Source of the DNA: Anaerolineae bacterium
GTDB lineage: Bacteria; Chloroflexota; Anaerolineae; Anaerolineales; Villigracilaceae
DNA: 51,244 nt
Assembly (NCBI GenBank): GCA_017303655.1
Contig: JAFLCE010000020.1
Location: 1-51,244, forward strand
Direction: 5' to 3'
Shown here: piece after piece, positions 3,004 to 50,574 of the stretch
How positions within the stretch are numbered: position 1 is the stretch's first letter
Layout of the letters: each line of letters begins with the position of its first letter
The notes under the pieces: generated by a model
Databases searched by the model: none
What the model saw: only the letters and a program-made list of their open reading frames with translations
What the model was told of the DNA's origin: nothing
Translations under genes and position numbers: made by a program

Positions 3004-3038
3004 GAATGATGAAGGATGAATGCAGAATGATGAATGAA
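3004..3038. repeat. Heptamer tandem array, five units
   Basis: Five consecutive 7-nt units: GAATGAT, GAAGGAT, GAATGCA, GAATGAT, GAATGAA. The array fills the space directly upstream of the DUF177 start (2998), which lacks a Shine-Dalgarno. It belongs to a set of period-7 arrays at junctions in this window. Confidence 0.8.
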
Positions 3039-3069
3039 AAACTAATTCACCTATCTGCAAATATACCGA

Positions 3070-4035
3070 CTAGACTTTTCTATCGACAATATATTTCGCC
3101 AGATTTTCCAGCGCGTCGCGTTCGGCAGAGGCTTCAAAAGATTCGAGTCTGGCGAGGGCGCGGTCTACGTGTTGTTCGGCTTCGACCATGGCTTTCTTGG
3201 TGCAATTGCTCGAGCGAATCTTCTCCACAAGGCGGGTCATGTTCTCGTTATTGGTCCAGCCGCCGTTGGGCAGGGAAAGGACATCCACGTCGTCGGGATT
3301 GATCTCAGCGAAGTAAATGGCTGGGAGGGTGACCAAGCCATTCAGTAGGTCTGAGCCGAGCGGTTTGCCCACGGCATTTTGGTCGCCATTGAAGTCGAGG
3401 ATGTCATCCACGATCTGGAATGCCATACCGATCTGATAGCCGAAATCGCGCATGGCTTCATTCGTCTCTTCGCCCGCCGGGCTGACCATGGAGGAGGCGC
3501 GGGCGGTCATTTCGAAAAGGGAGGCGGTCTTGGCGTAAATTCGTTTGTAGTAATTCTCGCGGCTGATGAGACCGCGCGAGGTGAACATTTGGGTCAGTTC
3601 GCCATTGACGATGGTTGCCAGGGTTTCAGAGAATAGTTTCATCAGCGCCAGGTGGTCGGTGTCGGCGGCGAGTTTGGCGGCACGTGCAAACAAGAAGTCG
3701 CCAGTGAGGACTGTGGCGGGCGGTGACCAGCGTGCGTTGAGGGTGGGGGTACCGCGCCGAAGTAGGGAACCGTCGATCAGGTCATCATGCACCAGGGTGG
3801 CAGTGTGGAGTAATTCCACAGCGGCGCCAAGGGTAACGAGCTTTTCCAGCGGCGCATCCAGCATGTTTCCGATGAGCAAGCCAAGGGTCGGTCGGACGCG
3901 CTTCCCTCCGGCGGCGAGGAGGTGTTCGAGGGCAGCACGCAGGTCGGGGTGGTGCTCATCTGCCTGGGCGCGCATCCGCTCTTCAACGAGTTTGATTTCT
4001 TCTGTTACGGGTGAAAGGAAAGTTACCGTGCTCAA
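3070..4035 (-). CDS. Trans-type polyprenyl diphosphate synthase
   Basis: Condenses isopentenyl diphosphate with allylic diphosphates to make a prenyl chain, probably for menaquinone or a lipid carrier. The 321-residue protein has GGKRVRP near the N-terminus, the first Asp-rich motif LVHDDLID, the TGDFLFARA block, and the second Asp-rich motif VDDILDF, so it should be active. Product length cannot be read by eye; the residues before the first motif (ELLHTATLVHDD) are small and suit a medium to long chain enzyme. I start it at TTG 4035, which has GGGGAG six bases upstream and comes one base after the tatD stop, implying translational coupling; a TTG 18 bases earlier is in frame but has no site. 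Confidence 0.9.
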   Translation of the reverse strand: MSTVTFLSPVTEEIKLVEERMRAQADEHHPDLRAALEHLLAAGGKRVRPTLGLLIGNMLDAPLEKLVTLGAAVELLHTATLVHDDLIDGSLLRRGTPTLNARWSPPATVLTGDFLFARAAKLAADTDHLALMKLFSETLATIVNGELTQMFTSRGLISRENYYKRIYAKTASLFEMTARASSMVSPAGEETNEAMRDFGYQIGMAFQIVDDILDFNGDQNAVGKPLGSDLLNGLVTLPAIYFAEINPDDVDVLSLPNGGWTNNENMTRLVEKIRSSNCTKKAMVEAEQHVDRALARLESFEASAERDALENLAKYIVDRKV

Positions 4036-4036
4036 A

Positions 4037-4867
4037 TTAGTCTCCCCATGCAAAGAGCCGTGCCGCGTTGGCAGTGGTAATTTGGGCGATCTCTGCAGGG
4101 CTTTTGGAATGGATTTCTGCTATTTTATCAGCAATGTGATGAACAAAGGCAGGTTCGTTACGTTTGCCACGAAACGGTACGGGGGCGAGGAAGGGAGAGT
4201 CGGTTTCGATCAGCAAAAGGTTTAGCGAGATATTTTTTATCATGTTGCGGTGGCTTTCGTTCTTCGGGTAGGTGACTGGACCCGTAACGCCAAGGAGAAA
4301 GCCAGCTTTTATGGCTTTGGCTGCGAGGCTGCTTTCTCCGTTAAAGGAATGTAACACGCCGGGCGTCAGCCCAAGCGGGTGGTTGAGATAGAGCCATTTA
4401 TTGAACCAATAGTCCATCATCTCGAAAAGGTCATTGAAGACGGGACCTTCGGTGGCGTCGTTTAATTCACGCAGGTGGATGATCAGCGGCTTGTTCAAAG
4501 CATCTGCGATCTGGACCTGGGAGTTGAATACGATTTTCTGATGCTTTTGCTTCTCTGGTTCTTTCACCCAGTAATAATCCAAGCCAATCTCGCCAATGGC
4601 AACGACCTTTTCATGTTCGGCGAGTTTGAAAAGCTCATCAAAATTATCCTGAGAAAGGGTTTCTGCATCCGTCGGGTGGACGCCGACCGCGGCGTAGACT
4701 TGCTCATATTTCTCGGCGAGTTCAATGGCTTGTTTACTAGTCTCAATCGTCGTGCCAGGCACGAGCATTTTCGTTACGCCTGCTTCAATGGCGCGTTGAA
4801 TGACAGCTTCGCGGTCTTCGTCGAATTTATTCCAATAAAGGTGACAGTGCGTGTCGGTTAATTGCAT
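4037..4867 (-). CDS. tatD: TatD family metal-dependent DNase
   Basis: A 276-residue TIM-barrel hydrolase of the TatD/YcfH family, cytoplasmic 3'-5' DNA exonucleases that also act in quality control. Metal and active-site motifs are all present: TDTHCHL at the start, GEIGLDYY, LIIHLRE, VLHSFNG and ETDSPFLAP. The start at 4867 puts TDTHCHL at residue 4 as usual; a longer in-frame extension has no support. A somewhat long insertion (about residues 155-175, rich in Trp/Tyr) lies before LTPGVLHSF. First gene of a leftward group with the prenyl synthase, one base apart. Confidence 0.92.
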   Translation of the reverse strand: MQLTDTHCHLYWNKFDEDREAVIQRAIEAGVTKMLVPGTTIETSKQAIELAEKYEQVYAAVGVHPTDAETLSQDNFDELFKLAEHEKVVAIGEIGLDYYWVKEPEKQKHQKIVFNSQVQIADALNKPLIIHLRELNDATEGPVFNDLFEMMDYWFNKWLYLNHPLGLTPGVLHSFNGESSLAAKAIKAGFLLGVTGPVTYPKNESHRNMIKNISLNLLLIETDSPFLAPVPFRGKRNEPAFVHHIADKIAEIHSKSPAEIAQITTANAARLFAWGD

Positions 4868-5003
4868 GACTTCGCGATTATAACAGTCTGCTTTTGTAGG
4901 GTTCTGTAAACGGACCAATTTTACAAAGAAAGTGAGAAATTCATGACATTCATCTATTCGTCCTCTTTGTGTTTGTCGTGTTTATTTGGTACTTTTGCCT
5001 GAA

Positions 5004-5032
5004 TTGACCAAAGGTTTTTATGCCAGTATAGT
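5004..5032 (+). promoter_or_regulatory. Sigma-70-type promoter
   Basis: TTGACC (5004-5009), a 17-base spacer and TATAGT (5027-5032). It lies 30 bases upstream of the secreted protein gene starting at 5062. Confidence 0.75.
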
Positions 5033-5061: not shown

Positions 5062-6462
5062 ATGAAAAAAATAATTAACCTTGTATTGATTTTCTTATTT
5101 TTAGCAGCCATTCCCATTCATCCCGCCCATGCCGACGTCGCGCCGCCAGAGACTGTGCCTGGCTCGAACATCAACCCGGAGTCCGAGTCTACCCAAGTCC
5201 GCATGATGGCAGAGACTGTTACGTTGACCATCTCTGAAGATTCTGCCGATGAAAATGATGCCGTCGCTGAAACACGAGCCGTCTTCACCATGCGCAATCT
5301 CGGCACCGTTGAAGAGACGATGAATGTCCGTTTTCCACTTTCATTCTTCAATGGCAATTCGGATGGCTTCGGCGATTTCCCCGAAATCGATGCCATCGCA
5401 GTGACAGTGAACGGCAAGTCCGTTTCTACTCGGCGTGAGTCTCAGCCCTTCTTGAACAGTACATCCTCTTTTCAAGAACGAGATGAGCTTCCGTGGGCGG
5501 TCTTCGAAGTGACCTTCCCTCTAGACCAAGACGTCATCATTGAAGTCGTGTATAACGTGCAAGGCTTTGGGTATTATCCTTACGAAGTTTTCAAGTACGT
5601 CCTTGAAACCGGCGCGGGTTGGAATGGCACTATCGGCAGCGCCGAAGTGATTTTGCGCTTGCCTTATGAAGCAAACTCCTATAATGTTTGGACTCAAGGT
5701 GTAGAAGGCTATGGCGATGCAACTCCCGGCGGCGTGTTTAGCGCAAATGAAGTCCGCTGGAGGTTCGAAGACCTTGAACCCACCTTTGAGAACAATTTTC
5801 AATTTGTGATTGTGACTCCGTCACTGTGGCAAAAGGTGCTGACCGAAGACGCGAACGTCACCAAAGATCGCAATGACGGAGAAGCCTGGGGTAGGCTTGC
5901 CAAAGCCTATAAAGAGATTATTAGGATGCCCAAAGGATATCTTCGCAGTGACATTGCCGGGCAAGGCATGTTCGAGCTAAGCCGCAGCGCCTATGAAACC
6001 TGTCTTGGCATTTTGCCCCAAGACCCGCTTTGGTTATATGGGTCTGCTGAATTATTGTGGGCTCATTATTACTACGACCTCTATTTCATGGGGCAGCCCG
6101 ATACTCAAAACCTTTTGCCAACCACGTTGGCTCGGCTTCAAACTGCGCTAAAAATTGACCCAAATCTTCAACTGGCAAAAGATCTATTGCTTCAGATCAG
6201 TTACTCTCTACCAAGTGCCGTTCAACAAAATGAAGATGGAAGTTTTACCTTGCTCGGGCTGACGGCTACGCCGGTTCCTCCCACGCGGATAGCTGAGCAA
6301 GCTACCTCAACCTCTACCCCCGCTGTGACCATTCCAACCCCCACATACTCCATGGGAGTGAATACTCCGGAACCTGTTTCTGCCCCCACTCCGCTGTGTG
6401 GAAGTGCCTTCCTCCTGCCAGCATTGTTTGGAATGTACATCTTTACAAAACATCAGCGATAG
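5062..6462 (+). CDS. Secreted protein with DUF4424-like N-domain, TPR-like helices and C-terminal anchor
   Basis: A 466-residue exported protein. Residues 1-24 form a Sec signal peptide ending HPAHA-DVAPP. Residues about 45-260 are beta-rich with phrases such as VFTMRNLGTVEETMNVRFPL that recall DUF4424-type ectodomains. Residues about 270-390 look helical and repeat-like (AWGRLAKAYKEII, AYETCLGILPQDPLW, LQTALKIDPNLQLAKDLL), resembling TPR. Then comes a Thr/Pro linker and the tail PLCGSAFLLPALFGMYIFTKHQR-like end: a Cys, one hydrophobic helix and basic residues, as in C-terminal sorting or anchor signals. Ribosome site is CAGGA-like, promoter at 5004-5032. The function is unknown; a cell-surface role is the safe reading. 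Confidence 0.6.
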   Translation: MKKIINLVLIFLFLAAIPIHPAHADVAPPETVPGSNINPESESTQVRMMAETVTLTISEDSADENDAVAETRAVFTMRNLGTVEETMNVRFPLSFFNGNSDGFGDFPEIDAIAVTVNGKSVSTRRESQPFLNSTSSFQERDELPWAVFEVTFPLDQDVIIEVVYNVQGFGYYPYEVFKYVLETGAGWNGTIGSAEVILRLPYEANSYNVWTQGVEGYGDATPGGVFSANEVRWRFEDLEPTFENNFQFVIVTPSLWQKVLTEDANVTKDRNDGEAWGRLAKAYKEIIRMPKGYLRSDIAGQGMFELSRSAYETCLGILPQDPLWLYGSAELLWAHYYYDLYFMGQPDTQNLLPTTLARLQTALKIDPNLQLAKDLLLQISYSLPSAVQQNEDGSFTLLGLTATPVPPTRIAEQATSTSTPAVTIPTPTYSMGVNTPEPVSAPTPLCGSAFLLPALFGMYIFTKHQR

Positions 6463-6802
6463 TAAAATAAACATGACTCCCTTAGAATTTTAGTTTTGTA
6501 GAAGGGTTATGTCTTAGAGTGGAAGGGCGCTGAAAACGCGGATGTTTATATTTATTCCATGTTCGTAAATGCTTTGGAAAATAAAGGTACTTCCTCGAAA
6601 CATTGAACGGGAAAGTATCCCATAGCTTCTATTTACTGTTTTGTCTGATAAACAGTTTATCCTTCTCTGCGCGTAAAGCCTCGATATCTGTCCACAGGAG
6701 GAATTTTCGCTAATGGCTTAAGCTGGATTGCTCGATCCAATTCCATGGATTGAGACCTATTATAATATTAACAATATTTGTGTTTTTCTGGTTGGAGTTA
6801 CT
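6463..6802. other. Gene-poor stretch with a perfect -10 box
   Basis: This 340-base gap holds no convincing gene. At 6696-6701 a strong AGGAGG is followed, 11 bases on, by ATG-GCT-TAA (6713-6721), a two-codon frame that may be the stub of a lost gene or a minimal leader. A TATAAT lies at 6761-6766 upstream of the next gene but has no good -35 partner. Composition is AT-rich compared with the neighbours. I see no tRNA fold. Confidence 0.5.
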
Positions 6803-11675: not shown

Positions 11676-12821
11676 ATGATTTACCTCGATTATGCCGCCA
11701 CCACCCCCGTTGACGAGCGCGTGCTCGCCAAAATGATGCCGTATTTCCGTGAGAATTACGGGAATCCGTCGTCCATTCACCGGCTAGGGCAAAAAGCCGA
11801 AGCTGCAGTGGATGAAGCGCGGGAGAAGGTCGCCTCTGTTTTAGGCTGCCGCGCGGATGAGATCGTCTTCACCTCTGGTGGCTCCGAAGCGGACAACCTC
11901 GCTTTGCGCGGCGCGATGCTGGCAAATAAAGAATCAACTAAATGGATTCTGACCGCCAAGACAGAACATCCTGCCGTGAGCAAGACCGCTATTCAACTTG
12001 AAAAGGAATATGGCTTTCTGCTCGAGTGGTTGGATGTGGACGAACATGGCGCTGTCATAGTCGAGTCATTGGCGAAGGCGGTTTGCAATAACACGACCAT
12101 GGCTTCGGTGATGTATGCTAATAATGAGATTGGCACGATCAACCCCATCGCTGAATTGGCGGAAGTCGCGAAGGCGAACAACATCCTTTTCCACACCGAC
12201 GCTGTACAAGCCGCGGCATACCTCGATGTGAATGTTTCAAAACTCGGCGTGGATTTAATGTCGCTCGGTGGACATAAATTCTACGGACCGAAAGGAGTGG
12301 GGGCGTTATACGTCCGCAAGGGGACGAAGCTCGTGCCACATCTCACCGGTGGAAGTCAGGAATTCAGTCTGCGCGCCGGGACACATAACGTTCCATACAT
12401 CGTTGGCTTTGCTGAAGCGTTGTATCTTGCCGCACAGGAACGTGAAGCACGCACGGCTCACGTCAAGCCGATGCGAGATTACATCATTGGAACTGTCCTT
12501 GAAACCATCTCTGATTCAAAACTCACAGGTCATCCTGAACAGCGTCTGCCCAACCATGCCTCTTTTGTCTTCAAAGATGTGGATGGCAATTTGCTTTTGC
12601 AATTGCTCGATGCAGCGGGCTTCGCTTGTTCTTCCGGTTCCGCCTGCAAGACCGGCAACCCCGAACCAAGCGAAGTCGTCACTGCACTAGGTTATTCACG
12701 CGAGTGGGCATTGGGCTCTTTGCGTATCACCCTTGGTGCAGGCACAACATCGGAGCATATTGATTCATTCTTGAAAACATTACCTGCTCTCATTGATAAA
12801 ACCCGAAGTCTAAATAAATAA
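11676..12821 (+). CDS. Cysteine desulfurase (IscS/NifS type)
   Basis: PLP enzyme of the class V aminotransferase fold that takes sulfur from cysteine for Fe-S clusters and thiolated tRNA. In 381 residues it shows the N-terminal MIYLDYAATTPVD, the TSGGSEADN loop, NNEIGTINP, the PLP lysine in SLGGHKFYGPKG, RAGTHNVP, and the active cysteine in FACSSGSACKTG. The short C-terminus lacks the IscU-binding tail of E. coli IscS, closer to NifS-like forms. I start at ATG 11676; a TTG two codons earlier overlaps the -10 region. It leads a rightward set of five tightly spaced genes. No iscU or mnmA is next to it. Confidence 0.93.
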   Translation: MIYLDYAATTPVDERVLAKMMPYFRENYGNPSSIHRLGQKAEAAVDEAREKVASVLGCRADEIVFTSGGSEADNLALRGAMLANKESTKWILTAKTEHPAVSKTAIQLEKEYGFLLEWLDVDEHGAVIVESLAKAVCNNTTMASVMYANNEIGTINPIAELAEVAKANNILFHTDAVQAAAYLDVNVSKLGVDLMSLGGHKFYGPKGVGALYVRKGTKLVPHLTGGSQEFSLRAGTHNVPYIVGFAEALYLAAQEREARTAHVKPMRDYIIGTVLETISDSKLTGHPEQRLPNHASFVFKDVDGNLLLQLLDAAGFACSSGSACKTGNPEPSEVVTALGYSREWALGSLRITLGAGTTSEHIDSFLKTLPALIDKTRSLNK

Positions 12822-12851
12822 CTATTCAACTATCTAACTACTCAACTACCC
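12820..12851. repeat. Octamer tandem array filling a gene junction
   Basis: Four consecutive 8-nt units: AACTATTC, AACTATCT, AACTACTC, AACTACCC. It begins inside the desulfurase stop codon and ends one base before the TTG start of the next gene, so it makes up the whole intergenic space and leaves no Shine-Dalgarno. Confidence 0.85.
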
Positions 12852-14362: not shown

Positions 14363-14779
14363 ATGAGAATCCTCGCAGTTGACCACGGTGAAAAACGAAT
14401 CGGGCTCGCCCTCAGCGACCCGACCGCTACGATTGCCAGCCCATTGAAAGTTGTGCAACATGTTTCGCGCGTTATTGACGCTGCCCAAGTGGCGGATATC
14501 GCCGTGCAAAATGATGTTGTTCTTATTGTCGTGGGGCAGTCCTACGATGAAGACGGCAACCCCAACCCAGCCGGTCGTCGCGCTGGTCGCTTTGCTGACG
14601 AACTTCGCAACCAGACGAATATCCCCATTGAACTATGGGACGAATCACATAGCACTCAGATCGCCCGTGCCGCCCGCATCGAGCTTGGCGTCTCCCGCAA
14701 AAAACGCGCTGGGCATCAAGATGAATTCGCCGCCGTGATTATCTTGCAATCGTATCTTGAAGCGAAGCGTAATGCGTAA
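14363..14779 (+). CDS. ruvX: YqgF/RuvX family nuclease
   Basis: Small RNase H-fold nuclease of the YqgF family (putative Holliday junction resolvase, shown in E. coli to be needed for pre-16S rRNA 5' processing). The 138 residues begin RILAVDHGEKRIGLALSD with the first catalytic Asp, contain the conserved VVGQSYDEDGN region (usually VVGLP), WDESHSTQIA with the Glu, and end near KKRAGHQDEFAAVIILQSYL with the last Asp before the C-terminus. ATG 14363 gives the usual start; a TTG 21 bases upstream lies in a GACGATT/ATCGTC repeat. It comes before mltG, a pairing seen widely in bacteria. Confidence 0.9.
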   Translation: MRILAVDHGEKRIGLALSDPTATIASPLKVVQHVSRVIDAAQVADIAVQNDVVLIVVGQSYDEDGNPNPAGRRAGRFADELRNQTNIPIELWDESHSTQIARAARIELGVSRKKRAGHQDEFAAVIILQSYLEAKRNA

Positions 14780-14793
14780 ATCGTATATCAACC

Positions 14794-18527: not shown

Positions 18528-18560
18528 AAGTGACAGTCACATTACAGGTGACTGTCACTT
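18528..18560. terminator. Hairpin between amidohydrolase and membrane protein genes
   Basis: AAGTGACAGTCAC (18528-18540) pairs exactly with GTGACTGTCACTT (18548-18560) around a 7-nt loop. It lies eight bases after the stop of the leftward amidohydrolase gene. The U tract is weak, so it may be a processing or stability stem rather than a full terminator. Confidence 0.65.
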
Positions 18561-21633: not shown

Positions 21634-22760
21634 TATTTCATTTCCTCAAGGGTGGTCCGCAACCAATTCAGGGCGACGTTCATGCTCCAGCGCGGAAGGC
21701 TTCTTGGCGGACCGCCGTAGGTGATGCGATGGGTCTTCTCGCCGTTGGGAGTGATCATTGCCATTTCTGCAGCGCGTTCTTCCAAATATACGGAGACACC
21801 GAGGGCGATATCTGCTTTTGAGTCGGCTCGGGCGGAACGAAGGGCTTGGGTCAGCGCTTCAGGCGTCAGATTAGGGAGTGAGGCGGTATGCGGAATTTTT
21901 CGCGCAAGCAGTCCGTCGAGTCCGCTTTCGATGGCGGTGAGGGTTACTCCGCGTTTTTCAAGAAGATCCAGCACGACTTCTTCAAGTTTGTCTTCATCTG
22001 CGCCGAAGACAACGGAACCGAGGCGTTCACGCACATCCGCTTCGACCTTGGCGATCAGGGCATTGGCTTCGGCTTCGCTTTTTGCTTTTGCCGTAATGCG
22101 CACATCCACCACACCTGTATGCGCCGCAAGACCTACGGTGGGGTTGCTGAGCGTTTCGAGATCGGCGATCTTTTCGTCGATCATGCCTTCACCGAGACCG
22201 GCACAATGTAGTACGCGGACTTTGATAACTTCATCGAGCCCGAAGCGTTTTTGCAAATACGGGATGACCGATTCATGCAGCACATGTTCCATTTCGGCGG
22301 GTACGCCGGGCAACGAAATGACTGCATTCTTTTCTGTTTCTACAATAAAGCATGGCGCTGTGCCGACCGGGTTTCTTAACCCAATGGCACCCTGCGGAAC
22401 ATATGCCTGCCGCTTTTGATTTTCAGAAGGGGTGCGTCCGTAACGCCCGATGGTCTCAACCACTTGCTGCCAGAGGTCTTCGCGAAATTCTGTTTCTACG
22501 CCGACGGCTTTTGCAACGGCTTCACGGGTGGGGTCATCGATGGTAGGTCCCAGCCCGCCAGTGGTGATGATGATGTTAGCGCGTTCCATTGAGTCGCGGA
22601 TCACTTCCGCAATGCGTTCGACATTGTCACCAATGGTGACAGTGCGATACAGGTCCACACCTAGTCCGCGCAATGTGAGCGCGATGTGACGAGTATTCGT
22701 ATCCACGATCTCGCCGAGTAATATTTCTGTTCCGATTGTGATGATTTCTGCTGAGGTCAT
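21633..22760 (-). CDS. CinA-like protein with degraded NMN deamidase domain
   Basis: Residues 1-255 form the COG1058/MoeA-like domain (EIITIGTEILLGEIVDTN, TTGGLGPTIDDPTREA, SLPGVPAEME), reported in relatives as an ADP-ribose pyrophosphatase-like domain. The C-terminal CinA domain should begin with AESCTGG, the catalytic loop of NMN deamidase (PncC). Here the place reads AIESGLDGLLARK (277-283): Glu-Ser stay but Cys-Thr-Gly are changed, the following block is shortened, and the domain is about 115 rather than 160 residues. Total length 375 is below the usual 410-430. Deamidase activity is therefore doubtful. AAAGG near the ATG; start lies beside a 9-nt-unit inverted repeat. Confidence 0.85.
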   Translation of the reverse strand: MTSAEIITIGTEILLGEIVDTNTRHIALTLRGLGVDLYRTVTIGDNVERIAEVIRDSMERANIIITTGGLGPTIDDPTREAVAKAVGVETEFREDLWQQVVETIGRYGRTPSENQKRQAYVPQGAIGLRNPVGTAPCFIVETEKNAVISLPGVPAEMEHVLHESVIPYLQKRFGLDEVIKVRVLHCAGLGEGMIDEKIADLETLSNPTVGLAAHTGVVDVRITAKAKSEAEANALIAKVEADVRERLGSVVFGADEDKLEEVVLDLLEKRGVTLTAIESGLDGLLARKIPHTASLPNLTPEALTQALRSARADSKADIALGVSVYLEERAAEMAMITPNGEKTHRITYGGPPRSLPRWSMNVALNWLRTTLEEMK

Positions 22761-22773
22761 AAAATCCTTTAAA

Positions 22774-22847
22774 CACGAAGGTCACGAAGTACACAAAGGA
22801 TGAAACTTCTCCTTGGTCTTTCCTTCGTGACCTTGGTGTCCTTTGTG
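22774..22847. repeat. Inverted pair of three 9-nt units (CACNAAGNN)
   Basis: Left units: CACGAAGGT, CACGAAGTA, CACAAAGGA (22774-22800). Right units on the minus strand: CACAAAGGA, CACCAAGGT, CACGAAGGA (22847-22821). It fills the gap between cinA and the DAO-family gene. Same architecture as 1000-1068. Confidence 0.8.
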
Positions 22848-22852
22848 TTTAA

Positions 22853-24010
22853 TTAAACTACATTGTACTCTTTTATCAAGCGACCTTCTTCGAAGCGTTT
22901 CAGATCAAGCATTGAAACATCTACGCTTGAGAATTTTCCGTCCAAAATAAATTCGCTCATCAACTTGCCAGAGATCGGTCCGTGCATAAAGCCATGCCCA
23001 GAAAACCCGGTGCAAAGCGTAAAGCCTTTCACATCGGTCTCACCATAGATCGGGTGCGCATCGGGCGTCACTTCATATAAACCCGCCCAATGTGCGGCGC
23101 GGCTGGCACGTTCAATCAGCGGCATGCGTGCAATGGCGGCTTCCAAATTCACCAATTCAAAATCTTCATCTACATTTTGGTCGAAGTCAGGTTTTTCATT
23201 CTGATTACTCATGCCGATCAACAGACCTTCACCTTCGCGATGAAAATACAAAGACTTTGCAAAATCGATCACGAATGGAAAATCTTCAGACACTTCCTTC
23301 AATGGGTTGGTCGTGAACATTTGTCGGCGTAGGGGCGTGATAGGGATATTTACTCCAGCCATGGTACCGATCAGACCCGACCACGGTCCAGCCGCGTTGA
23401 GGATGTGCCGCGCCTCCACCTCGCCCAGGTTTGTTCTTACACTGCGAACCTCTCCGCTGCTGACGGTGATTCCAATGACTTCCACGCCGGTGAGCGCGGT
23501 GACACCCATCTTTTGCGCCGCATTGACGTAGCCCATCACGATGCTGTTCGGGTCAGCGGTGCCGTCTTTGCGATGGAATGTGCCCGCCAGTGCATCGTCA
23601 AAGCGCATGAGTGGCAAACGCCTGCGGACTTCATCTCCGCTTAAAAGCTCGGTTTGCACACCCAGTCGGTTCTGCATGGCGACGTTCTGCTTGAACTCTT
23701 GCACTTCCTGTTCGTTGGTCGCAACCAGCAAATAACCATATTGATGATAACTGGGGTCTTGTCCAAGCTCTTCTTTGAATCGTTCGATCATTGGCAGGCT
23801 GTGTTTCGATAAAGTCACATTGATCTCAGTTGAGAACTGATAGCGGACTCCGCCCGCACAACGACCCGTGGCGCCTGTACCAAAATGGCTTTCTTTTTCA
23901 AGAAGGAGAATATTCTTCACTCCGCGTTTTGCGAGGTGATAGGCGGCACTGGCACCCATCACGCCGCCACCGATGATGATGACATCTGCTGTTTTAGGTA
24001 AGTTTGTCAT
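22853..24010 (-). CDS. FAD-dependent DAO-family oxidoreductase
   Basis: A 385-residue flavoenzyme of the glycine/sarcosine/D-amino-acid oxidase (DAO) family. The FAD dinucleotide fold is at the start, DVIIIGGGVMGASAAYHLAKRG, then GTGATGRCAGGVRYQFS and, near the C-terminus, CTGFSGHGFMHGPISGKLMSEFI. It resembles SoxB-like subunits and D-proline/hydroxyproline or opine-type dehydrogenases; substrate unknown. It follows livF but with a strong terminator between, and its ATG lies only 16 bases past that hairpin with no Shine-Dalgarno; a TAAAAT nine bases from the ATG could give a leaderless mRNA. Proximity to an amino-acid transporter suggests an amine or amino-acid substrate. Confidence 0.85.
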   Translation of the reverse strand: MTNLPKTADVIIIGGGVMGASAAYHLAKRGVKNILLLEKESHFGTGATGRCAGGVRYQFSTEINVTLSKHSLPMIERFKEELGQDPSYHQYGYLLVATNEQEVQEFKQNVAMQNRLGVQTELLSGDEVRRRLPLMRFDDALAGTFHRKDGTADPNSIVMGYVNAAQKMGVTALTGVEVIGITVSSGEVRSVRTNLGEVEARHILNAAGPWSGLIGTMAGVNIPITPLRRQMFTTNPLKEVSEDFPFVIDFAKSLYFHREGEGLLIGMSNQNEKPDFDQNVDEDFELVNLEAAIARMPLIERASRAAHWAGLYEVTPDAHPIYGETDVKGFTLCTGFSGHGFMHGPISGKLMSEFILDGKFSSVDVSMLDLKRFEEGRLIKEYNVV

Positions 24011-28184: not shown

Positions 28185-29462
28185 CTACTTGCCAGGGGAG
28201 GCGAGATCGAAGGAATCGATGATCTCGTTGGTGCCCCATGCATCCTTGGTGGAAGCATTCACCTTGATGATGAAGTACTTGGCGAGGGGAAGATCGCCGA
28301 TTTCATCGAAGGTGATGGTGCTGGTCAAACCTTCGTAGTTGACAGCGCGGACGGCTTCAGCAACCTGAAGGCGGGTGGGGGTGCCACCAGCGGCTTCAGC
28401 AGCGGCCTTGATCGCGGTCAAACAAACGCCAGCGGCATCGTAAGCCTGAGCAGCGTAAGCTTCAGGAGCGGCGCCGAACTTGGCGGTATAGTCTTCAGCG
28501 AACTTGGCAGCGGCAGGGTAGGCGCTGACAGGTCCAGCAACGGTGGTGTAAGCCATACCGCCGCCGGTGGTCAGAGCATCGCCAGCGATGTCAGCCAGGT
28601 CGGAAGAATCCATACCGTCGGTGCCGAGGAAGGTGCCTTCGTAGCCAGCATCACGAGCCTGCTTGAAGAACACACCCGCCTGGTTGTAGATACCAGCGAA
28701 GAACACAACATCGGGCTGGGTGGCGATGAGAGGGGTCACGATCGCATCGAAGTTGGCGGTCTCTTCGGTGCCTTCAAAGCCGAGGATTTCAATGCCATCT
28801 TCTTCAGCAGCGATGCGGAAGAATTCAGCCACACCCTGACCGTAAGCGGTCTTGTCGTGGATGATGTAGACGGACTTGGCGCCGAGAGTAGTGAAAGCAT
28901 ATTCTTCAGCGGCAGGAGCCTGGACATCATCGCGACCCACAACACGGTTAACTTCGAGGTAACCACGGGTGGTCACAACGGGGTTGGTGTTGGCGGGGGA
29001 GACGAAGGCGAGGTTGGCGGTGTGATATTCCTCGGAAGAGGGGATCATAACGCCGGAGTTCAAGTGACCAACACCGCACAGGATCTCGGAGTCAGCAACG
29101 ATGTTCTTGGCATTCGCAACGCCGACATCAGGGGTAGCCTGATCATCATACGGGGCGAGCTGGACATCATAGCCCATGGCAATCAAATCGCCAGCGAGCT
29201 GTTCGAGAGCGAGTTCAGCGCCCTGCTTGATGGCAACACCGAGCAAGGACTGACCACCGGAGAGCGGGCTCTGGGTGGCGATCTTAATGGTGCCCATGGA
29301 AGCAGCAGCTTCTTCGGTCGCGGCGGCTTCTTCGGTTGCAGCCGCTTCTTCAGTTGCGGCAGGTTCTTCGGCAGGGGCTTCGGTCGCCGTAGGGGCGCAG
29401 GCGGCGAGTGCCATGCTGGCAATTACCAACAGGGACAGTAAAGCGAGTAAACGCTTGTTCAT
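28185..29462 (-). CDS. livK: Periplasmic-type substrate-binding lipoprotein LivK
   Basis: Type I solute-binding protein of the HAAT importer, 425 residues. Signal and lipobox LLVIASMALAAC-AP, then a low-complexity linker of AATEEA repeats (about 28-55) that tethers the domain, then TIKIATQSPLSGGQSLLGVAIKQGAELALEQ, the Leu/Ile/Val-binding fold. Also VVGRDDVQAPAAEEYAF, VYIIHDKTAYGQGVAEFFR and LGTDGMDSSDL. Ligand class cannot be fixed by eye. Strong GGAGGAG seven bases before the ATG; promoter at 29712-29684 and a 215-base leader with a small ORF, hairpin and operator-like boxes. Confidence 0.93.
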   Translation of the reverse strand: MNKRLLALLSLLVIASMALAACAPTATEAPAEEPAATEEAAATEEAAATEEAAASMGTIKIATQSPLSGGQSLLGVAIKQGAELALEQLAGDLIAMGYDVQLAPYDDQATPDVGVANAKNIVADSEILCGVGHLNSGVMIPSSEEYHTANLAFVSPANTNPVVTTRGYLEVNRVVGRDDVQAPAAEEYAFTTLGAKSVYIIHDKTAYGQGVAEFFRIAAEEDGIEILGFEGTEETANFDAIVTPLIATQPDVVFFAGIYNQAGVFFKQARDAGYEGTFLGTDGMDSSDLADIAGDALTTGGGMAYTTVAGPVSAYPAAAKFAEDYTAKFGAAPEAYAAQAYDAAGVCLTAIKAAAEAAGGTPTRLQVAEAVRAVNYEGLTSTITFDEIGDLPLAKYFIIKVNASTKDAWGTNEIIDSFDLASPGK

Positions 29463-34932: not shown

Positions 34933-36792
34933 GTGAATTCCCGTAGTCAATCGTTTTTTGTGTACTTACTATTGCTCGTAGCCATCGGTGCCATGATCGT
35001 CATCGGTTTGCGAGACAGTTCCAACGCCACCGAGCCGCTCACGATTAGTGAAGTGGCGCGGATGATCCAAAGTGGTCAGGTTGCGCGCATCGTTATTGAA
35101 AGCGACAACACCATTCGCGTGGTAAAGGTCAATGGGTCTGAAGAGACCGCACTTGAATCACGTAAAGAGTCGGATACTTCTCTCATTGAACAGCTCCGCG
35201 ATTATGGCGTCACCCCTGAGCAGCTTACTGAAATGAACGTTGAAGTCAGTGCGCCCTCTGTGTGGGGCGGCGTCTTGAATGGTGCGTTGTATCTATTGCC
35301 TGTTCTCTTTATGGGTGGTTTGTTGTGGTTCATCTTCCGTCAGGCGCAGGGCAGCAACAATGCCGCCATGTCGTTTGGCAAGAGCCGTGCACGCATGTTC
35401 AGTGGGGAACATCCTACTGTGACCTTTGCTGATGTTGCCGGTGCGGATGAAGCCAAGCAGGAACTCGCGGAAATCGTCGAATTCCTCAAAGAGCCTCAGA
35501 AATTCATCCAACTTGGTGCTCGTATTCCCAAGGGTGTTTTATTGGTAGGTCCTCCCGGAACTGGTAAGACCCTGCTTTCAAAGGCAGTGTCTGGTGAAGC
35601 GGGTGTACCCTTCTTCTCCATCTCTGGTTCAGAATTCGTGGAAATGTTCGTGGGCGTGGGTGCAAGCCGCGTGCGCGATCTGTTCGACCAAGCCAAGCGC
35701 CATTCGCCTTGTATTATTTTTGTAGATGAAATTGATGCTGTGGGTCGTCAGCGTGGTGCGGGTCTCGGTGGTTCACACGATGAACGTGAGCAGACTCTCA
35801 ACCAAATGCTTGTTGAAATGGACGGTTTCGATACCGACACCAACGTCATTATCATTGCCGCCACCAACCGCCCCGACATTCTGGACCCGGCTCTGCTGCG
35901 CCCCGGTCGCTTTGACCGCCGCGTAACCCTCGACCGCCCCGATGTAAAGGGACGCGAAGCCATCCTCAAGGTACACGTCAAAGGCAAGCCCTTGGAACCC
36001 AATGCCGACCTCGCCTCTGTAGCGCGTGGCACACCCGGTTTCGCTGGCGCCGACCTTGAAAACCTCGTCAACGAAGCAGCGATTTTAGCTGCCCGCCGCA
36101 ATAAGAAATCCATCGGTCAGTCCGAATTGGAAGAAGCCATCGAACGCGTCGTGATGGGACCGGAACGCAAGAGCCGCCTCATCTCGGATGAAGAGAAGCG
36201 CATCATTGCCTACCATGAGGCTGGTCATGCCATCGTAGCCAATGCCATCGCTGAAGCCGACCCCGTCCAAAAAGTGACCATCGTCGGTCGCGGACAGGCT
36301 GGTGGCGTAACCTGGTTCCGCCCCGATGAAGACCGCATGCTCATGTCTCGCAAGAAGATGCTTGCCACACTCGCATACGCTTTGGGTGGTCGCGCCGCCG
36401 AAGAATTGATCTTCGACGACATTACCTCCGGCGCTTCGGGTGATATTGAACAAGTGACTCGCATGGCACGCGCCATGGTCACCCGCCTCGGCATGAGTGC
36501 GGAAATGGGCACACTTGCTTACGGACAAAAAGAAGAGATGATCTTCCTCGGGCGTGAGATCTCTGAACAACGCGATTACTCCGAAGCCGTTGCCGAACAG
36601 ATCGACCGCGAAGTTCGCAAGCTCGTGGAGGATGCGTACAAGCAAGCCAAGGCAACCGTAAAGAAATATCGCAAGCAGCTCGAACTGGTTGCCAAGAAAC
36701 TCCTCGAAGTCGAGTCCATCACCCGCGATGAGTTCGAAGCAATCTTCCCGCCCCCGTTCGGCAAGAAGAGCGGCACCCCGCAATTGACGTAA
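34933..36792 (+). CDS. ftsH: ATP-dependent zinc metalloprotease FtsH
   Basis: Membrane AAA protease for quality control. The 619 residues have two membrane helices (about 8-26 and 112-135) around an outer domain, then AAA: Walker A GPPGTGKT (206-213), Walker B FVDEIDA (265-268), SRH with [21 protein letters not shown], the pore motif [10 protein letters not shown], and the M41 protease site HEAGH (428-432) with third ligand Asp in [15 protein letters not shown] start with GGAGG six bases upstream. Ends at a junction with heptamer arrays around a terminator. Monocistronic. Confidence 0.97.
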
Positions 36793-36890
36793 GAATGTAA
36801 ATCGTAATCCGTGATACGTAAAGAGCCTCCCGAAATTCGAGAGGCTCTTTTGATTCTTTTACAAATTACGCATTACGTTTTACGAACTAC
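36789..36890. repeat. Inverted pair of heptamer arrays around a terminator
   Basis: GTAA/GTGA cores recur at 36797, 36804, 36811 and 36818 (period 7, with one more at 36789), starting in the ftsH stop. After the hairpin, TTAC cores recur at 36859, 36866, 36873 and 36880 with CTAC at 36887, running into the stop of the ligase gene. The two arrays are in opposite orientation. Confidence 0.8.
36820..36850. terminator. Bidirectional terminator between ftsH and ligase gene
   Basis: AAAGAGCCTC (36820-36829) pairs with GAGGCTCTTT (36841-36850), extended by an inner CGAA/TTCG. T-run on the right; A-run on the left for the minus strand. Confidence 0.85.
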
Positions 36891-38587
36891 TTCCCGCCTT
36901 CTTTATGCTGCCTCACCAACTCACGGCGCAGGATCTTGCCGACCGTAGTCTTGGGCAATTCCGTGCGGAACTCGATATAACGCGGCACTTTGTAAGGCGC
37001 GAGGATCCCTTTGCAGTATTCCTTGAGTTCCTCTTCGGTGATCGACTCGCCGGGTTTGAGCACCACCCAGGCTTTGACCGTTTCACCGCTCTTCGGGTCA
37101 GGGATGCCGCCCACACCGACCTCCAATACTTTCGGGTTCGACATGATGGCTTCTTCCACTTCACGCGGCCACACCTGGAAACCACCCGGCTTGATCAATT
37201 CCTTCTTGCGGTCAACGATATAGAAGTAACCGTCTTCATCCATGCGGGCAATGTCGCCGGTGAAGAGCCAGGTCTTGCCGTCCTTCAACGTGCGCAGGGA
37301 ATTGGCGGTCTCAGTGGGCATATTGTGATAGCCCTTCATCACCTGCGGACCGTTGACGACGATCTCGCCGATCTCACCCAATTGCATTTCAGTTTCGCCG
37401 TCGTCAAGGCTGATGAGTTTCATGTCCACGTCTGGCAGGGGCATGCCAATCGACCCGGTCTTGTTCGCGCCGTTGAGTGGGTTGCAGGTCACGGCGGTCG
37501 GCGCTTCAGACATGCCGAAGCCTTCGAACACCTTGCCGCCTGTCAAACGCTCGAACTCTTCCTTGGTTTCACGCATCAGAGCCGCTGAACCGGAGATACA
37601 GGCTTTGATCGAAGAAAGATCATATTTACCGGCTTTTACATCCGGATGGTTGTTGAGCGCGTTATAAAGCAAAGGCACGCCGGGGAAGATGGTTGCCTTG
37701 TACTTGCTGATGTTATCGAGCACGTCCTTAAAATCACGTGCATTCGGTATCATCACCATCGTCGCGCCAGATGCCATGGCAAAGCTCATGCCCGCCACCA
37801 TGCCATACACATGGAAGAGCGGAATGCCCATCAGCACCACTTCCTTGCCTTCTTCCAAACCGGTCATCCACAACTTGATCTGCAAGGTGTTTGCCACCAC
37901 ATTGCGATGCATGGCAACTGCACCTTTCGGCACACCGGTCGTACCGCCGGAGTATTGGAAGAGCGCCGTATCGTCAGGCTGAATATCAATGGAGGGCTTG
38001 GGAGAACCGGCATGTTTTTTGAGCAGGTCCTGCATCCAGACATCAGAACTTTCAAGTTCATGCAGGCGGTCGCCGCCCTTCTTTTCTCGAAGCAGGGTGT
38101 ACAACACGCGAGTGACGGGAGGCAGGGCTTCCTTCAAATTTGAAACGATAATTTTCTTAAGGTTCGACTTATTCCGCACTTCCTTGAGCGTGTTATAGAA
38201 GCGAGTCAGAGTGAACATCACTTCGATACCCGCATCGTTCACGGGAGTAAGCACTTCTTCCACTGGGTAGGTAGGGTTCACTGCAACCACCACACCACCT
38301 GCTTTCAAAATGCCGAAAAAGGCGGCTACGAATTGCGGCAAGTTCGGCATAAAAATGCCAACCCGGTCGCCCTTCTTCACACCCATTTCCACCAGTGCCG
38401 CAGCCATTGCGTTCGACTGCTCGTTCATCTCCCGATATGAAATGACCGCACCCTTGAATATTGTACAGGCGCGGTCAGGATATTTGCGCGCAGCTTCTTC
38501 CAAAAAGTGAAACAGCGGCGCTTTCGGGTAATCGATTGTTTGTGGCACACCTTTATCATAATGCGCCAGCCAGGGTTTGTTGCTCAT
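36887..38587 (-). CDS. Long-chain fatty acid-CoA ligase (AMP-binding)
   Basis: Activates fatty acids to acyl-CoA through acyl-AMP. The 566 residues hold the ANL motifs: P-loop QYSGGTTGVPKGAV, EGFGMSEAPTAV, WLFTGDIARMDEDGYFYIVDR with the hinge after it, KKELIKPGGFQVWPREVEEA, and the catalytic lysine near the C-terminus in TVGKILRREL. Resembles FadD; chain length preference is not readable. GGAGGAAGT precedes the ATG. No other beta-oxidation gene is beside it. Confidence 0.92.
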   Translation of the reverse strand: MSNKPWLAHYDKGVPQTIDYPKAPLFHFLEEAARKYPDRACTIFKGAVISYREMNEQSNAMAAALVEMGVKKGDRVGIFMPNLPQFVAAFFGILKAGGVVVAVNPTYPVEEVLTPVNDAGIEVMFTLTRFYNTLKEVRNKSNLKKIIVSNLKEALPPVTRVLYTLLREKKGGDRLHELESSDVWMQDLLKKHAGSPKPSIDIQPDDTALFQYSGGTTGVPKGAVAMHRNVVANTLQIKLWMTGLEEGKEVVLMGIPLFHVYGMVAGMSFAMASGATMVMIPNARDFKDVLDNISKYKATIFPGVPLLYNALNNHPDVKAGKYDLSSIKACISGSAALMRETKEEFERLTGGKVFEGFGMSEAPTAVTCNPLNGANKTGSIGMPLPDVDMKLISLDDGETEMQLGEIGEIVVNGPQVMKGYHNMPTETANSLRTLKDGKTWLFTGDIARMDEDGYFYIVDRKKELIKPGGFQVWPREVEEAIMSNPKVLEVGVGGIPDPKSGETVKAWVVLKPGESITEEELKEYCKGILAPYKVPRYIEFRTELPKTTVGKILRRELVRQHKEGGK

Positions 38588-42692: not shown

Positions 42693-42789
42693 GTGCCGCG
42701 TGAAAAATAAAACGTGAATTCTCCAAACATCACGTTTCACTTTTCACCCATCAATCCAAACTCGTAAACCGAAAAATTGTAAATCGTCA
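42689..42789. repeat. Heptamer arrays between rnc and smc
   Basis: Right-hand array: TCAC cores at 42730, 42737, 42744 and TCAA at 42751 (period 7). Left array in opposite sense: GTGC/GTGA cores at 42693, 42700 and 42714 (steps of 7 and 14). A third set, GTAA cores at 42764 and 42779, runs up to the smc ATG, which lacks a Shine-Dalgarno. Confidence 0.7.
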
Positions 42790-46398: not shown

Positions 46399-46426
46399 AC
46401 GATTGACCGCGAACGATAGACGATGG
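46399..46426. repeat. Heptamer tandem array after smc
   Basis: GACGATT, GACCGCG, AACGATA, GACGATG: four 7-nt units, starting five bases after the smc stop and running into a terminator. GACGAT/ATCGTC also occurs in the junction at 14337-14353. Confidence 0.65.
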
Positions 46427-48043: not shown

Positions 48044-50251
48044 ATGCCTAATAAATTAGAAGTTCTTCTTTCCCAGTTACAAGAACAAATTGAACCGGCG
48101 CAACGCTTGCAGTTGCTCAATGATCTGAGCGAGGAATACTCAGACATTGATTATCTTAAAGCGTTTGAAACCGCAGAAGAGATGTATCACCTTGCATTAA
48201 AACATAATATTGATAATTTTATTGCACAGGCACTTGGTCAACAGGCGTGGCTTCACGCCTGTTTTGGAAATGTACAGGAAAGTCTTACCTTTGCTTCTCA
48301 AGCCCAATTGATCTATACCCGGCTCGGGGATGAAAATGGACTAGCACAAGCTTCTTTGCATGCATCGGCTGCCTTACGGCGTTTGGGAGATTATCCCGGT
48401 GCTTTGGAGGAGGCATTGAGCGCTTTGGATCTGTATCAAACACATGGAGATCGACAGGGTATTGCGGAGACAATGGCAAGGCTGAGTTACTTATATGTTC
48501 ACCTGGGGGATTATGAACAAGCAGAAATTTATGGCTTGAAAGCATATAGTGAGTTTGAGGCAATTAAGGGATCGGGTGGAATTTATAAATTTTCTATTCC
48601 TAATAGTTTGGCGATGGCGTATTTTCACCAAAACAAACGTATCGAAGCAATGAATATCTTTTTTAAAGAAGTTGATTTCCTGCGAAAACAAAACAATAAA
48701 CCAGATTTGGGAATTGCTCTTAACAATCTAGGCACGGTTCTTTTAGAACTTGATAGATTGGTAGAAGCAGAGGAATTAGTTGCTGAGGCACTAAGGTTGG
48801 ATGTGGAAACCAATCATCGTTATGGTGAAATTAATTGTTTGTTTACCCTGGGTGAAATTGAAGAGAAAAAGAAAAATTATGAGGGCGCCATTTCATATTT
48901 CAACCAATCTCTGGAGAAAGCCATCGCGAATCATGTTGAACAGATCGTTTATGAATTGCATGATCGTCTGGCTACTGTGTATGAAAACCTGGGGCAGGTC
49001 GATTTGGCGTTTGCCCACCTCAAGAAATATCGAGAAATAAGAGAGCGACTTTTTAAAACAGAGTCTTTGGATCGAATACGGGGTTTGAGGATTGTCCATG
49101 AGACGAAACAGGCAATAGAAGAAGCCCGCCGTAATGCTGAAGTTGTGTCACAACGAAATCGTGAAATTGAATTATTGCAGAAGACATTGACGACTATGAG
49201 TACATATTCTGAAAGACGTCATATTTTGGATGTTGTCTGCATGGAAATGTCAAGCACACTGAAATCTACTCTGAGCATGGCGATCACTATTGATAGTGAC
49301 CAGCAACACGGAACCATTGAGGCGGGGTTTCATGGAGACAAAAAACTTGATTTACTAGATCTTAAGCTCGGTGAATTAATTGACCGAGATTCTAAATTAG
49401 CTACAAATGTTCTTGATGAAGGACGCATCGAAGTGATTCGCGATGTTGATTCCTTTTTTGGAGGTACAGTCCGCCTGGCAGCTCTTATAAAAAATTTTGG
49501 TGTTTTTAGCTTGATTGCCATGCCGATCATAGTCAATAAATGCACTGTCATGGTTTTGGTTGTTGGCTTTGATAACAAACGAGAATTCACAGACGCGGAT
49601 ATTAACCTCGCCACCACCTTGGCTGCCTCACTTAGTCAAATTTTCGAAAATGCACATCTTTATCAAAGCCTGGTAACGGCTCACGATACCCTATCCAAAG
49701 CATATGACGCCACTATTGAGGGATGGGCAAAAATATTGGAATTACACGATCTGGAGACAGAGGGACATGCGCGTCGTGTTACCGAACAAACTATCAAACT
49801 TGCCCAAGCCTTTGGTGTAAGCAACGACGAGATCATCCATATTCGGCGCGGTGCGCTTTTGCACGATATTGGCAAATTGGGCATCCCTGATCAAATTATT
49901 CTTAAGAATGGAAGTCTAACTGAAGAAGAGTGGGAGATTATGCGTAAGCATCCACAATTTGCTTGTGAAATGCTTGCGGATATTGAATATTTGAAACCTG
50001 CCCTGGATATTCCTTATTGTCATCATGAAAAATGGGACGGAAGCGGCTACCCACAAGGGTTAAGAGGTGAGCAAATCCCGTTGGTGGCTCGTCTTTTTGC
50101 GGTTGTCGATGTGTGGGATGCGCTTCGATCTGATCGCCCCTATAGAAAGGGTTGGAGTGATGAAAAAGTGTATGACTATATTCGATCATTGTCAGGCACA
50201 CACTTTGATCCAAAGGCAGTGGAAGCTTTTTTTGTCATGATGGGACAATGA
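48044..50251 (+). CDS. TPR-GAF-HD-GYP signalling protein
   Basis: A 735-residue cytoplasmic protein. Residues about 1-340 are TPR-like (SLTFASQAQLIYTRLGDENG, AISYFNQSLEKAIANHVEQI), then a coiled-coil helix (about 345-385), a GAF-like sensor domain (about 390-545), and a C-terminal HD-GYP phosphodiesterase (about 560-730). HD-GYP marks are intact: EGHARRV, LLHDIGKLGIPD, HHEKWDGSGYPQGL, VVDVWDALRSDRPYRKG. It should cleave cyclic di-GMP; no GGDEF is seen nearby. I start at ATG 48044; a TTG 12 bases earlier is possible. Ligand for TPR/GAF unknown. Confidence 0.93.
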   Translation: MPNKLEVLLSQLQEQIEPAQRLQLLNDLSEEYSDIDYLKAFETAEEMYHLALKHNIDNFIAQALGQQAWLHACFGNVQESLTFASQAQLIYTRLGDENGLAQASLHASAALRRLGDYPGALEEALSALDLYQTHGDRQGIAETMARLSYLYVHLGDYEQAEIYGLKAYSEFEAIKGSGGIYKFSIPNSLAMAYFHQNKRIEAMNIFFKEVDFLRKQNNKPDLGIALNNLGTVLLELDRLVEAEELVAEALRLDVETNHRYGEINCLFTLGEIEEKKKNYEGAISYFNQSLEKAIANHVEQIVYELHDRLATVYENLGQVDLAFAHLKKYREIRERLFKTESLDRIRGLRIVHETKQAIEEARRNAEVVSQRNREIELLQKTLTTMSTYSERRHILDVVCMEMSSTLKSTLSMAITIDSDQQHGTIEAGFHGDKKLDLLDLKLGELIDRDSKLATNVLDEGRIEVIRDVDSFFGGTVRLAALIKNFGVFSLIAMPIIVNKCTVMVLVVGFDNKREFTDADINLATTLAASLSQIFENAHLYQSLVTAHDTLSKAYDATIEGWAKILELHDLETEGHARRVTEQTIKLAQAFGVSNDEIIHIRRGALLHDIGKLGIPDQIILKNGSLTEEEWEIMRKHPQFACEMLADIEYLKPALDIPYCHHEKWDGSGYPQGLRGEQIPLVARLFAVVDVWDALRSDRPYRKGWSDEKVYDYIRSLSGTHFDPKAVEAFFVMMGQ

Positions 50252-50308
50252 CGCATTAATAAGTATTTATAGTGATATTTGTATTTCAAAACCAAAGGAA
50301 AGAATCTC

Positions 50309-50512
50309 ATGGCAGAGACTACACAGAACCAAGTCAAAGATGGTGATCATTGCGAAGTAATTACCGGAACCCATGCGGGCAAATCAGGAACCGTCCGCGA
50401 TATTAAGATGAGCAAAATGGGTCAAGTCACTATTACGGTAGTGTAGACAGATGGCGATCGCTTCAAGACCCTAGCGAGGAATGTCGTCGTTAAGAAATGC
50501 AGCAACGCTTAA
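50309..50512 (+). pseudogene. KOW-domain protein interrupted by one in-frame TAG
   Basis: ATG 50309 (AAAGGA upstream) opens a KOW-type protein: DGDHCEVITGTHAGKSGTVRD, then QVTITVV, then TAG at 50444-50446. The same frame goes on with TDGDRFKTLARNVVVKK to TAA at 50510-50512, giving a 67-codon gene. The continued part is what I would expect in this family (ITVV-Q-DGDRFKTLARNV), so the amber most likely replaces a glutamine codon by a single C-to-T change. It may be a true recent mutation, a base error, or amber readthrough. Ends at a terminator. Confidence 0.75.
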
Positions 50513-50517
50513 TACAG

Positions 50518-50550
50518 AAAACCCCGCTCCAGATTTCTGGAACGGGGTTC
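50518..50550. terminator. Bidirectional terminator
   Basis: AACCCCG (50520-50526) with CGGGGTT (50543-50549), inner TCCAG/CTGGA around ATTT. Lies between the KOW gene and the convergent PPIase gene. Confidence 0.8.
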
Positions 50551-50553
50551 TTG

Positions 50554-50574
50554 TTACTTATTACTCGTTACATG
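50554..50574. repeat. Short heptamer array
   Basis: TTAC cores at 50554, 50561 and 50568 (TTACTTA, TTACTCG, TTACATG), directly after the terminator and five bases before the PPIase stop. Same core as the right-hand array at 36859-36890. Confidence 0.6.

Follow-up and report, generated by a model that had tools for sequence, protein, structure and literature searches.

Degenerate tandem arrays of 7-, 8- and 9-nt words, often arms of hairpins at gene 3' ends, in Anaerolineales

Short tandem arrays lie at gene junctions in a 51,244-nt stretch of an Anaerolineae bacterium of the order Anaerolineales (GenBank assembly GCA_017303655.1, contig JAFLCE010000020.1, positions 1 to 51,244; hereafter the window), which raises the question of whether they exceed chance and how they come about. 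A preliminary description, made from the letters alone, had listed seven of them and likened them to the short tandemly repeated repetitive (STRR) heptamers of heterocystous cyanobacteria. The reading that we favour, and regard as probable though not firmly so, is that they are STRR-like degenerate tandem arrays with units of 7, 8 or 9 nt, about half of them hairpin arms, lying after genes either alone or around a terminator, and shaped by slippage together with a filter at gene ends.

All seven arrays were found at the positions listed for them. Each was scored against 500 dinucleotide shuffles of its own junction, and the number of shuffles scoring as well was 0 for GTAA/TTAC at 36789 and for TTAC at 50554, 2 for CGTA at 14768, 3 for the period-8 AACTATTC array at 12820 and 5 for GAATGAT at 3004. 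These five stand out from shuffles; the GTGA/TCAC array at 42693, equalled by 35 of 500 shuffles, was marginal, and GACGATN at 46399, equalled by 97 of 500, was not separable from chance. Among the listed arrays, Tandem Repeats Finder reported only GAATGAT and AACTATTC. Across the 33 gaps of the window, arrays numbered 5 at lag 7 (0.2 in shuffles), 1 at lag 8 (0.23) and 4 at lag 9 (0.18); the strict 7-nt step first proposed does not hold, since steps of 8 and 9 nt occur too.

The excess was also present in a sample of 736 kb of the 4.6-Mb draft genome (22 sequences, 664 genes by our own crude caller), whose non-coding part comprised 449 gaps and 64 kb, at an array threshold of our choosing, 72% over 3 units. 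At lag 7 the gaps held 30 arrays, against 3.45 ± 1.6 in dinucleotide shuffles (about 9-fold) and 3.6 in length-scaled coding sequence. The corresponding counts were 13, 2.6 and 1.2 at lag 8 and 17, 2.5 and 5.7 at lag 9, and lag 10 gave 4 arrays against 0.4 shuffled. Plain per-base autocorrelation of the gaps had no peak at lag 7 (0.271, with 0.270–0.280 at lags 3–6 and 0.26 in shuffles), so the signal resides in clustered arrays. In this sample, the period-7 signal sought in intergenic DNA thus took the form of an array excess over shuffles and not of an autocorrelation peak. Genome-wide, GTAANNNGTAANNNGTAA occurred 74 times against 10 for its reversed word, a control that is not neutral because the reversed word is equally common or commoner in some relatives.

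Many of the arrays are arms of hairpins lying at the 3' ends of genes. Counts of arrays, gaps and stop codons were pooled from the genomes G000, G015 and G031 and from 20 FtsH–smc stretches, which are partly orthologous and so not independent; the sample of relative G021 (63 gaps) stands outside the pool, and the count of inverted partners covers gaps of up to about 675 nt. In these four samples, 73 of 138 arrays had an inverted partner scoring at least 9, and 71 of the 138 beat all 20 of their shuffles. Many arrays form the two arms of a hairpin that spans the gap from stop codon to next start, as in GTAATNC / GNATTAC, GTGAATA / TATTCAC, ACAAGTAN / NTACTTGT and CACNAAGG / CCTTNGTG, and others are one-sided and sit between the stop codon and a GC-rich, terminator-like hairpin. 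Two terminator-like hairpins of the window, GC-rich and with a T run, separate the two arms at 36820 and adjoin the array at 50520; the GAATGAT/GATGAAK array is without a strong inverted partner. Median fold z-scores were −4.6 for gaps with paired arrays (31), −3.0 for those with unpaired arrays (22) and −3.1 for gaps without arrays (60 used). Arrays occurred in 19 of 107 convergent, 76 of 564 tandem and 6 of 116 divergent gaps, and in 10 of 59 gaps at sequence ends; of 107 arrays in tandem gaps, 51 lay within 15 nt of the stop and 27 within 15 nt of the start. Across phyla the hairpin build of GTAATNC was weak, with 17 partners downstream and 9 upstream for 140 arrays, and 6 in a reversed-word control made downstream only.

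Frequently, an array provides the stop codon of the adjoining gene. The FtsH stop codon is the GTAA that heads its array, 8 nt ahead of the next GTAA, and the RuvX-like gene ends at the TAA (14777–14779) of the second unit of its array. Stops in pooled 7- and 8-mer arrays starting no more than 3 nt after a stop codon were denser in sense than in antisense (0.106 vs 0.031 per nt; 30 vs 6 arrays, n = 40). The sense and antisense counts were 11 and 5 at 4–12 nt (n = 16) and 5 and 4 at 13–25 nt (n = 11), and the bias was reversed at 26–60 nt (5 vs 13, n = 21), a range occupied by second arms. Among arrays starting within 60 nt of a stop, only 1 of 18 9-mers did so within 3 nt, against 40 of 88 7- and 8-mers, and 9-mer arrays near a gene end hold few stops. 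Within 45 nt past the stop, all three frames were shut in 36 of the 93 flanks belonging to gaps that hold 7- or 8-mer arrays and in 65 of 588 other flanks; the antisense control gave 20 of 93 and 66 of 588. The 27 arrays near start codons had no stop polarity (11 vs 11). In 18 of 39 contact arrays (2.2 expected) a stop occurred in the same frame as the stop of the gene itself, a figure that cannot separate seeding of the word by the gene's stop from mere stop supply, because an entering frame must end in phase.

Turnover between relatives, whose absence would have counted against the preliminary description, was evident at two scales. Within the genus, counts of GTAA x3 spanned 1 (G023) to 165 (G015) in 37 genomes, and those made in 57 genomes spanned 0 to 150 for 9-mers and 0 to 159 for 8-mers; the 7-, 8- and 9-mer counts correlate (rho 0.53–0.57, uncorrected for kinship, with 37 genomes for 7-mers and 57 for the others). 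At the scale of single loci, 30 AAGGTTG loci from four genomes included three distinct arrays with an ortholog in a partner species (G072/G021 twice, G074/G031 once). In all three aligned pairs the difference was one 7-nt unit exactly, confined to one arm and forming the sole gap within the array, in 3-kb stretches of 96.8% and 92.3% (G072/G021) and 92.8% (G074/G031) identity.

The junction of the FtsH and AMP-ligase genes, whose states also change, was scored by eye in 51 genomes, 40 of which (G000 included) had FtsH seen beside the ligase; weak cases, G016, G066 and G073 among them, were counted as lacking an array, and the tree used is that of one gene, the ligase. A terminator-like hairpin, often though not always AAAGAGCC..GGCTCTTT, was found there in nearly all species. 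Its flanks vary: among the 40 species, 18 have no array, 9 have the 8-mers AAGTANAC and 13 have 7-mers of four kinds, with GTAATNC, GTAAYRA, GTAATTG and others among the words. On the ligase tree the states require a minimum of 19 changes, against a mean of 19.8 for shuffled labels (115 of 300 shuffles gave 19 or fewer). Presence of any array changes 15 times (13.4 shuffled), and all 51 scored species, including 11 without FtsH in the stretch, give 25 changes against 26.3. Genome-wide counts of 8-mers ran from 5 to 159 in the nine species with 8-mers at the junction and from 0 to 52 in the 13 with 7-mers (p = 0.005): the array state of the junction tracks the genome's own dictionary, not the tree. 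In the 30 of 40 junctions that were counted for polarity (the rest lacked a perfect stem of 6 or exceeded 260 nt, and G017 was scored on the wrong hairpin), GTAR, own gene stops included, was found 45 times in sense against 6 in antisense on the FtsH side and 32 against 4 on the ligase side.

A dictionary is likewise apparent among loci, and the view that each array has its own core had to be given up. When consensus units of G000, G015 and G031 were compared, with random intergenic words as the null, 7-mer words matched at 6 or more of 7 letters in 10.7% of 861 locus pairs (null 2.6 ± 0.7%); sharing was 7.9 vs 0.9% for 8-mers and 7.9 vs 0.4% for 9-mers. GTAATNC, GATGAAT, TCAACCT, AAACAAGT and CACNAAGG recur, and many units still occur once only. 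Some positions are free, as in GTAATNC, found with all four letters at N, and CACNAAG. Three tandem copies of GTAATNC were found in at least 118 stretches; the matches listed include Chloroflexota, Cyanobacteria (among them Nostoc, Anabaena, Calothrix and Planktothrix), Bacteroidota, Planctomycetota, Acidobacteria, Patescibacteria and Clostridia.

The slippage reading starts from what is observed directly, namely the shuffle excess, the hairpin layout, the 3'-end bias, the exact one-unit differences between close species, the repeated swapping of words at one orthologous junction, and the sense stops of arrays in contact with genes. During replication, the nascent strand would slip by one unit, which a hairpin would favour, and gaps downstream of genes may be the places that tolerate the resulting arrays. 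Selection would keep an array that enters a gene only when it ends translation. If only such arrays are kept, contact arrays would tend to hold a stop and to have a period of 7 or 8, with which a stop reaches three frames, and 9-mers without stops would remain a few bases clear of gene ends. Hairpin slippage would then account for unit turnover and the preference for hairpins, and the gene-end filter for position, polarity and the difference between periods. For the cell, the outcome would be a transcribed hairpin and redundant stops at the 3' end, which would probably strengthen termination or stabilise mRNA ends to a mild degree; near neutrality is probable for most single arrays.

Several observations weigh against this reading. 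Local slippage does not predict a common dictionary, yet loci have words in common; slippage and filter explain neither these common words, nor what carries them between loci, nor a site's following the dictionary of its genome. Which word is present at the FtsH/AMP-ligase junction varies with how often that word occurs in the whole genome, and the 8-mer state alone changes there 7 times in 40 species (8.2 shuffled). Paired arms agree in word, not in every letter (71% in the best register, 57–59% one unit off), and this excess over shifted registers is biased because the register was picked by score. Short lags are raised as well, if less strongly (244 vs 188 at lag 4, 40 vs 24 at lag 5, 34 vs 22 at lag 6), and the 63 sampled gaps of G021 hold no array at lags 7–9. 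Sense-stop polarity is partly mechanical, in that a frame entering an array with sense stops must end there, and the stop polarity of GTAATNC across phyla is not significant (35 sense vs 25 antisense among 139 arrays, with 11 both, 19 inside a frame and 49 neither). In view of these last two points, polarity is read as a filter on gene-end contact, not as proof of selected stop nets.

Dispersed mobile palindromes, REP/BIME or MITE-like, that owe their movement to a Y1 transposase (RAYT) or some other enzyme and look tandem only internally, are an alternative that we hold to be unlikely. Repetitive extragenic palindromes (REP) and bacterial interspersed mosaic elements (BIME) are likewise dispersed at gene 3' ends, with one conserved palindrome per family and a cognate RAYT gene adjoining. 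The present arrays differ from them in their internal 7–9 nt periodicity, several words and lack of a consistent RAYT link. As to one palindrome per family, the 9-mer hairpin at 22752–22855 has dispersed near-full-length matches in 4 of 4 relatives searched, one of 82% over about 100 nt, and 7-mers vary in unit number. In keeping with mobility, as the dispersed matches are, an 8-nt-step hairpin (CGCAAGG.../...CCTTGCG) of G074 (L074, about 6430–6640) is absent from that junction in the close relative G031 (L075), in junctions that differ otherwise too. Y1_Tnp occurs in 55 of the 57 genomes of the genus, array-poor ones among them, and its count weakly tracks that of 9-mers (rho 0.36, p = 0.005), with no significant link to counts of 7-mers (rho 0.22, p = 0.20) or 8-mers (rho 0.22, p = 0.10). 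The 54 gaps of 20 Y1_Tnp neighbourhoods included 6 that were flagged, a run of N among these, and common-word arrays lay in one neighbourhood only (G065). Contrary to mobile palindromes, 7-mer arrays change by a single unit, and the FtsH/AMP-ligase terminator is retained while its flanks swap word. As the driver of 7- and 8-mers, a RAYT/Y1 transposase is unsupported by counts and neighbourhoods; the weak 9-mer link stands.

Several other features were noted. A Y1_Tnp domain at G000:C129:5651-6007 (L335) lies in an open frame of about 540 codons, and similar long frames, unlike short RAYTs, occur in many genomes of the genus. The near-perfect palindrome AAGTGACAGTCAC..GTGACTGTCACTT at window positions 18528–18560 belongs to a separate dispersed family; G064, G025 and G034 have scattered matches to it, in many cases on both strands. 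At the rnc/smc junction, where the window has a 7-nt-step hairpin, L088 and L089 (G080 and G078) carry an insert that starts with CGTCATTGCGAGG and has inverted repeats, like a miniature inverted-repeat transposable element (MITE). In several relatives (L083, L084, L087, L089) the smc start codon is directly preceded by an A-rich 7-nt-step stretch, AAATCNT.

A genome-wide process might instead write one word into many gene ends in trans, the word of a site then following the current dictionary and not ancestry; templated repeat addition, conversion between arrays and uptake-biased drive are candidate routes. At one orthologous junction, an identical 8-mer seems to have arrived more than once, on the flanks of a terminator that was retained. 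Uptake-signal drive is known from Neisseria and Haemophilus, and several words per genome speak against such a drive by one receptor word. Spread in trans seems to us rather unlikely.

Sites for an RNA- or DNA-binding regulator that reads a short word at a fixed step, as proposed in the available text of PMC4679880 for the TAACTGA repeats of Beggiatoaceae, would suit the constant core letters with free letters between them (GTAATNC, CACNAAG) and the many copies per genome. Regulator binding is nonetheless improbable, because one genome holds several unrelated words and three periods and the word is swapped at the same gene pair between sister species. The arrays are, moreover, rarer in divergent gaps, unlike TAACTGA, which lies mostly ahead of start codons (PMC4679880, available text). 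We are equally sceptical of selected stop-codon nets, that is, arrays retained for shutting all frames past a gene. The sense stops and shut frames of array flanks, and a period of 7 or 8 and hardly 9 in contact arrays, agree with such nets. However, shut frames are raised on the antisense strand too, arrays on the start-codon side are without polarity, 18 of 40 species do without an array at the FtsH/AMP-ligase junction, and the mechanical share of the polarity and its cross-phylum null stand as given above. Chance or low complexity, which might be thought of for the two listed arrays at marginal or chance level and for the raised lags 4–6, is hardly credible and is ruled out for the class as a whole by the excess at lags 7–9, the count of 74 against 10 reversed and the unit-exact differences.

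The likeness to cyanobacterial STRRs holds. Shared are the 7-nt period, degeneracy, intergenic position at many loci per genome, hairpin pairs, turnover of unit number and even a word, GTAATNC in three copies; 7 nt as the sole period is not. The hosts here are Anaerolineales instead of heterocystous cyanobacteria, threefold GTAATNC extends to many phyla, and arrays of 8- and 9-mers built in the same way, flanked terminators and sense stops in contact arrays set the present class apart.

Inverted pairs, at first described as less familiar in this lineage, are not new in kind. The available text of PMC4476775 describes the P6b hairpin of the Nostoc trnL group I intron as a stem of degenerate heptamers of the classes TDNGATT and NNTGAGT, with one-sided gain or loss of a 7-nt repeat and independent class replacement at one site, as here; that case is a single intron locus, whereas the present arrays occupy many junctions with more words and three periods. 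The GGGNATC repeats of Xanthomonas and Nostoc, in the part of PMC4692102 available, are heptamers with a free position, enriched in non-coding DNA, favouring the space between aligned open reading frames, scarce between divergent ones and lying close to stops on the sense strand; they are G-rich, G-quadruplex-forming and preferentially of four units, unlike the words here, many of which are A/T-rich and hairpin-forming. TAACTGA, from the available text of PMC4679880, shares many short heptamer arrays in gaps and a patchy distribution over phyla. It is one exact word, mostly ahead of start codons, with one inverted case in 170 sets, in contrast to the many degenerate words, 3' ends and hairpins found here, without a single pre-start orientation; an earlier survey cited in that text ranks heptanucleotides as the most abundant long-repeat category in most genomes. 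Tandem repeats of archaeal Borgs, in the accessible portion of PMC9879509, are fast-evolving and partly intergenic, with slippage discussed and few intergenic units of a length divisible by three; they are perfect and of longer units, and that portion notes no inverted pairs around terminators. Titles and opening lines in the open-licence literature yielded no description of this architecture in Chloroflexota, which is weak evidence of absence.

The features of the window are collected in Table 1. Rfam gave no match within the window at gathering score. At 29302–29371, 18-nt repeats GCAGCTTCTTCGGTTGCG lie within a coding gene and are of a different kind.

Table 1. Arrays and associated hairpins in the window
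Position	Strand	Feature	Basis or remark
1000..1071	.	9-mer hairpin CGCNAAGNN / NNCTTNGCG; absent from the preliminary list	
3004..3038	+	7-mer array GAATGAT/GATGAAK x5, junction of YceD-like gene and polyprenyl synthetase gene	
12820..12851	+	8-nt array ACTANNCA x4, occupying the 31-nt gap of two genes	
14767..14789	+	7-mer array GTAANNC x3 at the end of RuvX-like gene (14363-14779)	
22772..22850	.	9-mer hairpin CACNAAGNN / NNCTTNGTG; absent from the preliminary list	
36789..36819	+	7-mer array GTAANNC, 5' arm after FtsH gene (34933-36792)	shuffle test, sequence
36820..36850	.	terminator-like hairpin AAAGAGCC..GGCTCTTT separating the two arms	seen in many relatives too
36857..36885	-	7-mer array TTACNNN, 3' arm; reads GTAA on the sense strand of the AMP-ligase gene (36887-38587)	
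42700..42747	.	hairpin GTGAAAA.. / ..TTTTCAC, 7-nt step, in the rnc/smc gap; array signal alone marginal	
46399..46426	+	GACGATN x4 downstream of the smc stop; chance level	
50520..50549	.	terminator-like hairpin adjoining the TTAC array	
50554..50571	-	7-mer array TTACNNR, reading GTAAYRA on the sense strand of the PPIase gene (end 50579)	

The heptamer repeats of cyanobacteria are thus part of a wider class with words of 7, 8 and 9 nt, and hairpins of short-word repeats are a widespread, little-studied kind of bacterial repeat. The dictionary effect raises a sharp, testable question on how words spread. With its 57 genomes, the Anaerolineales genus offers a natural experiment in which the gain, exchange and loss of arrays can be followed at fixed sites, together with their turning into the ends of genes.

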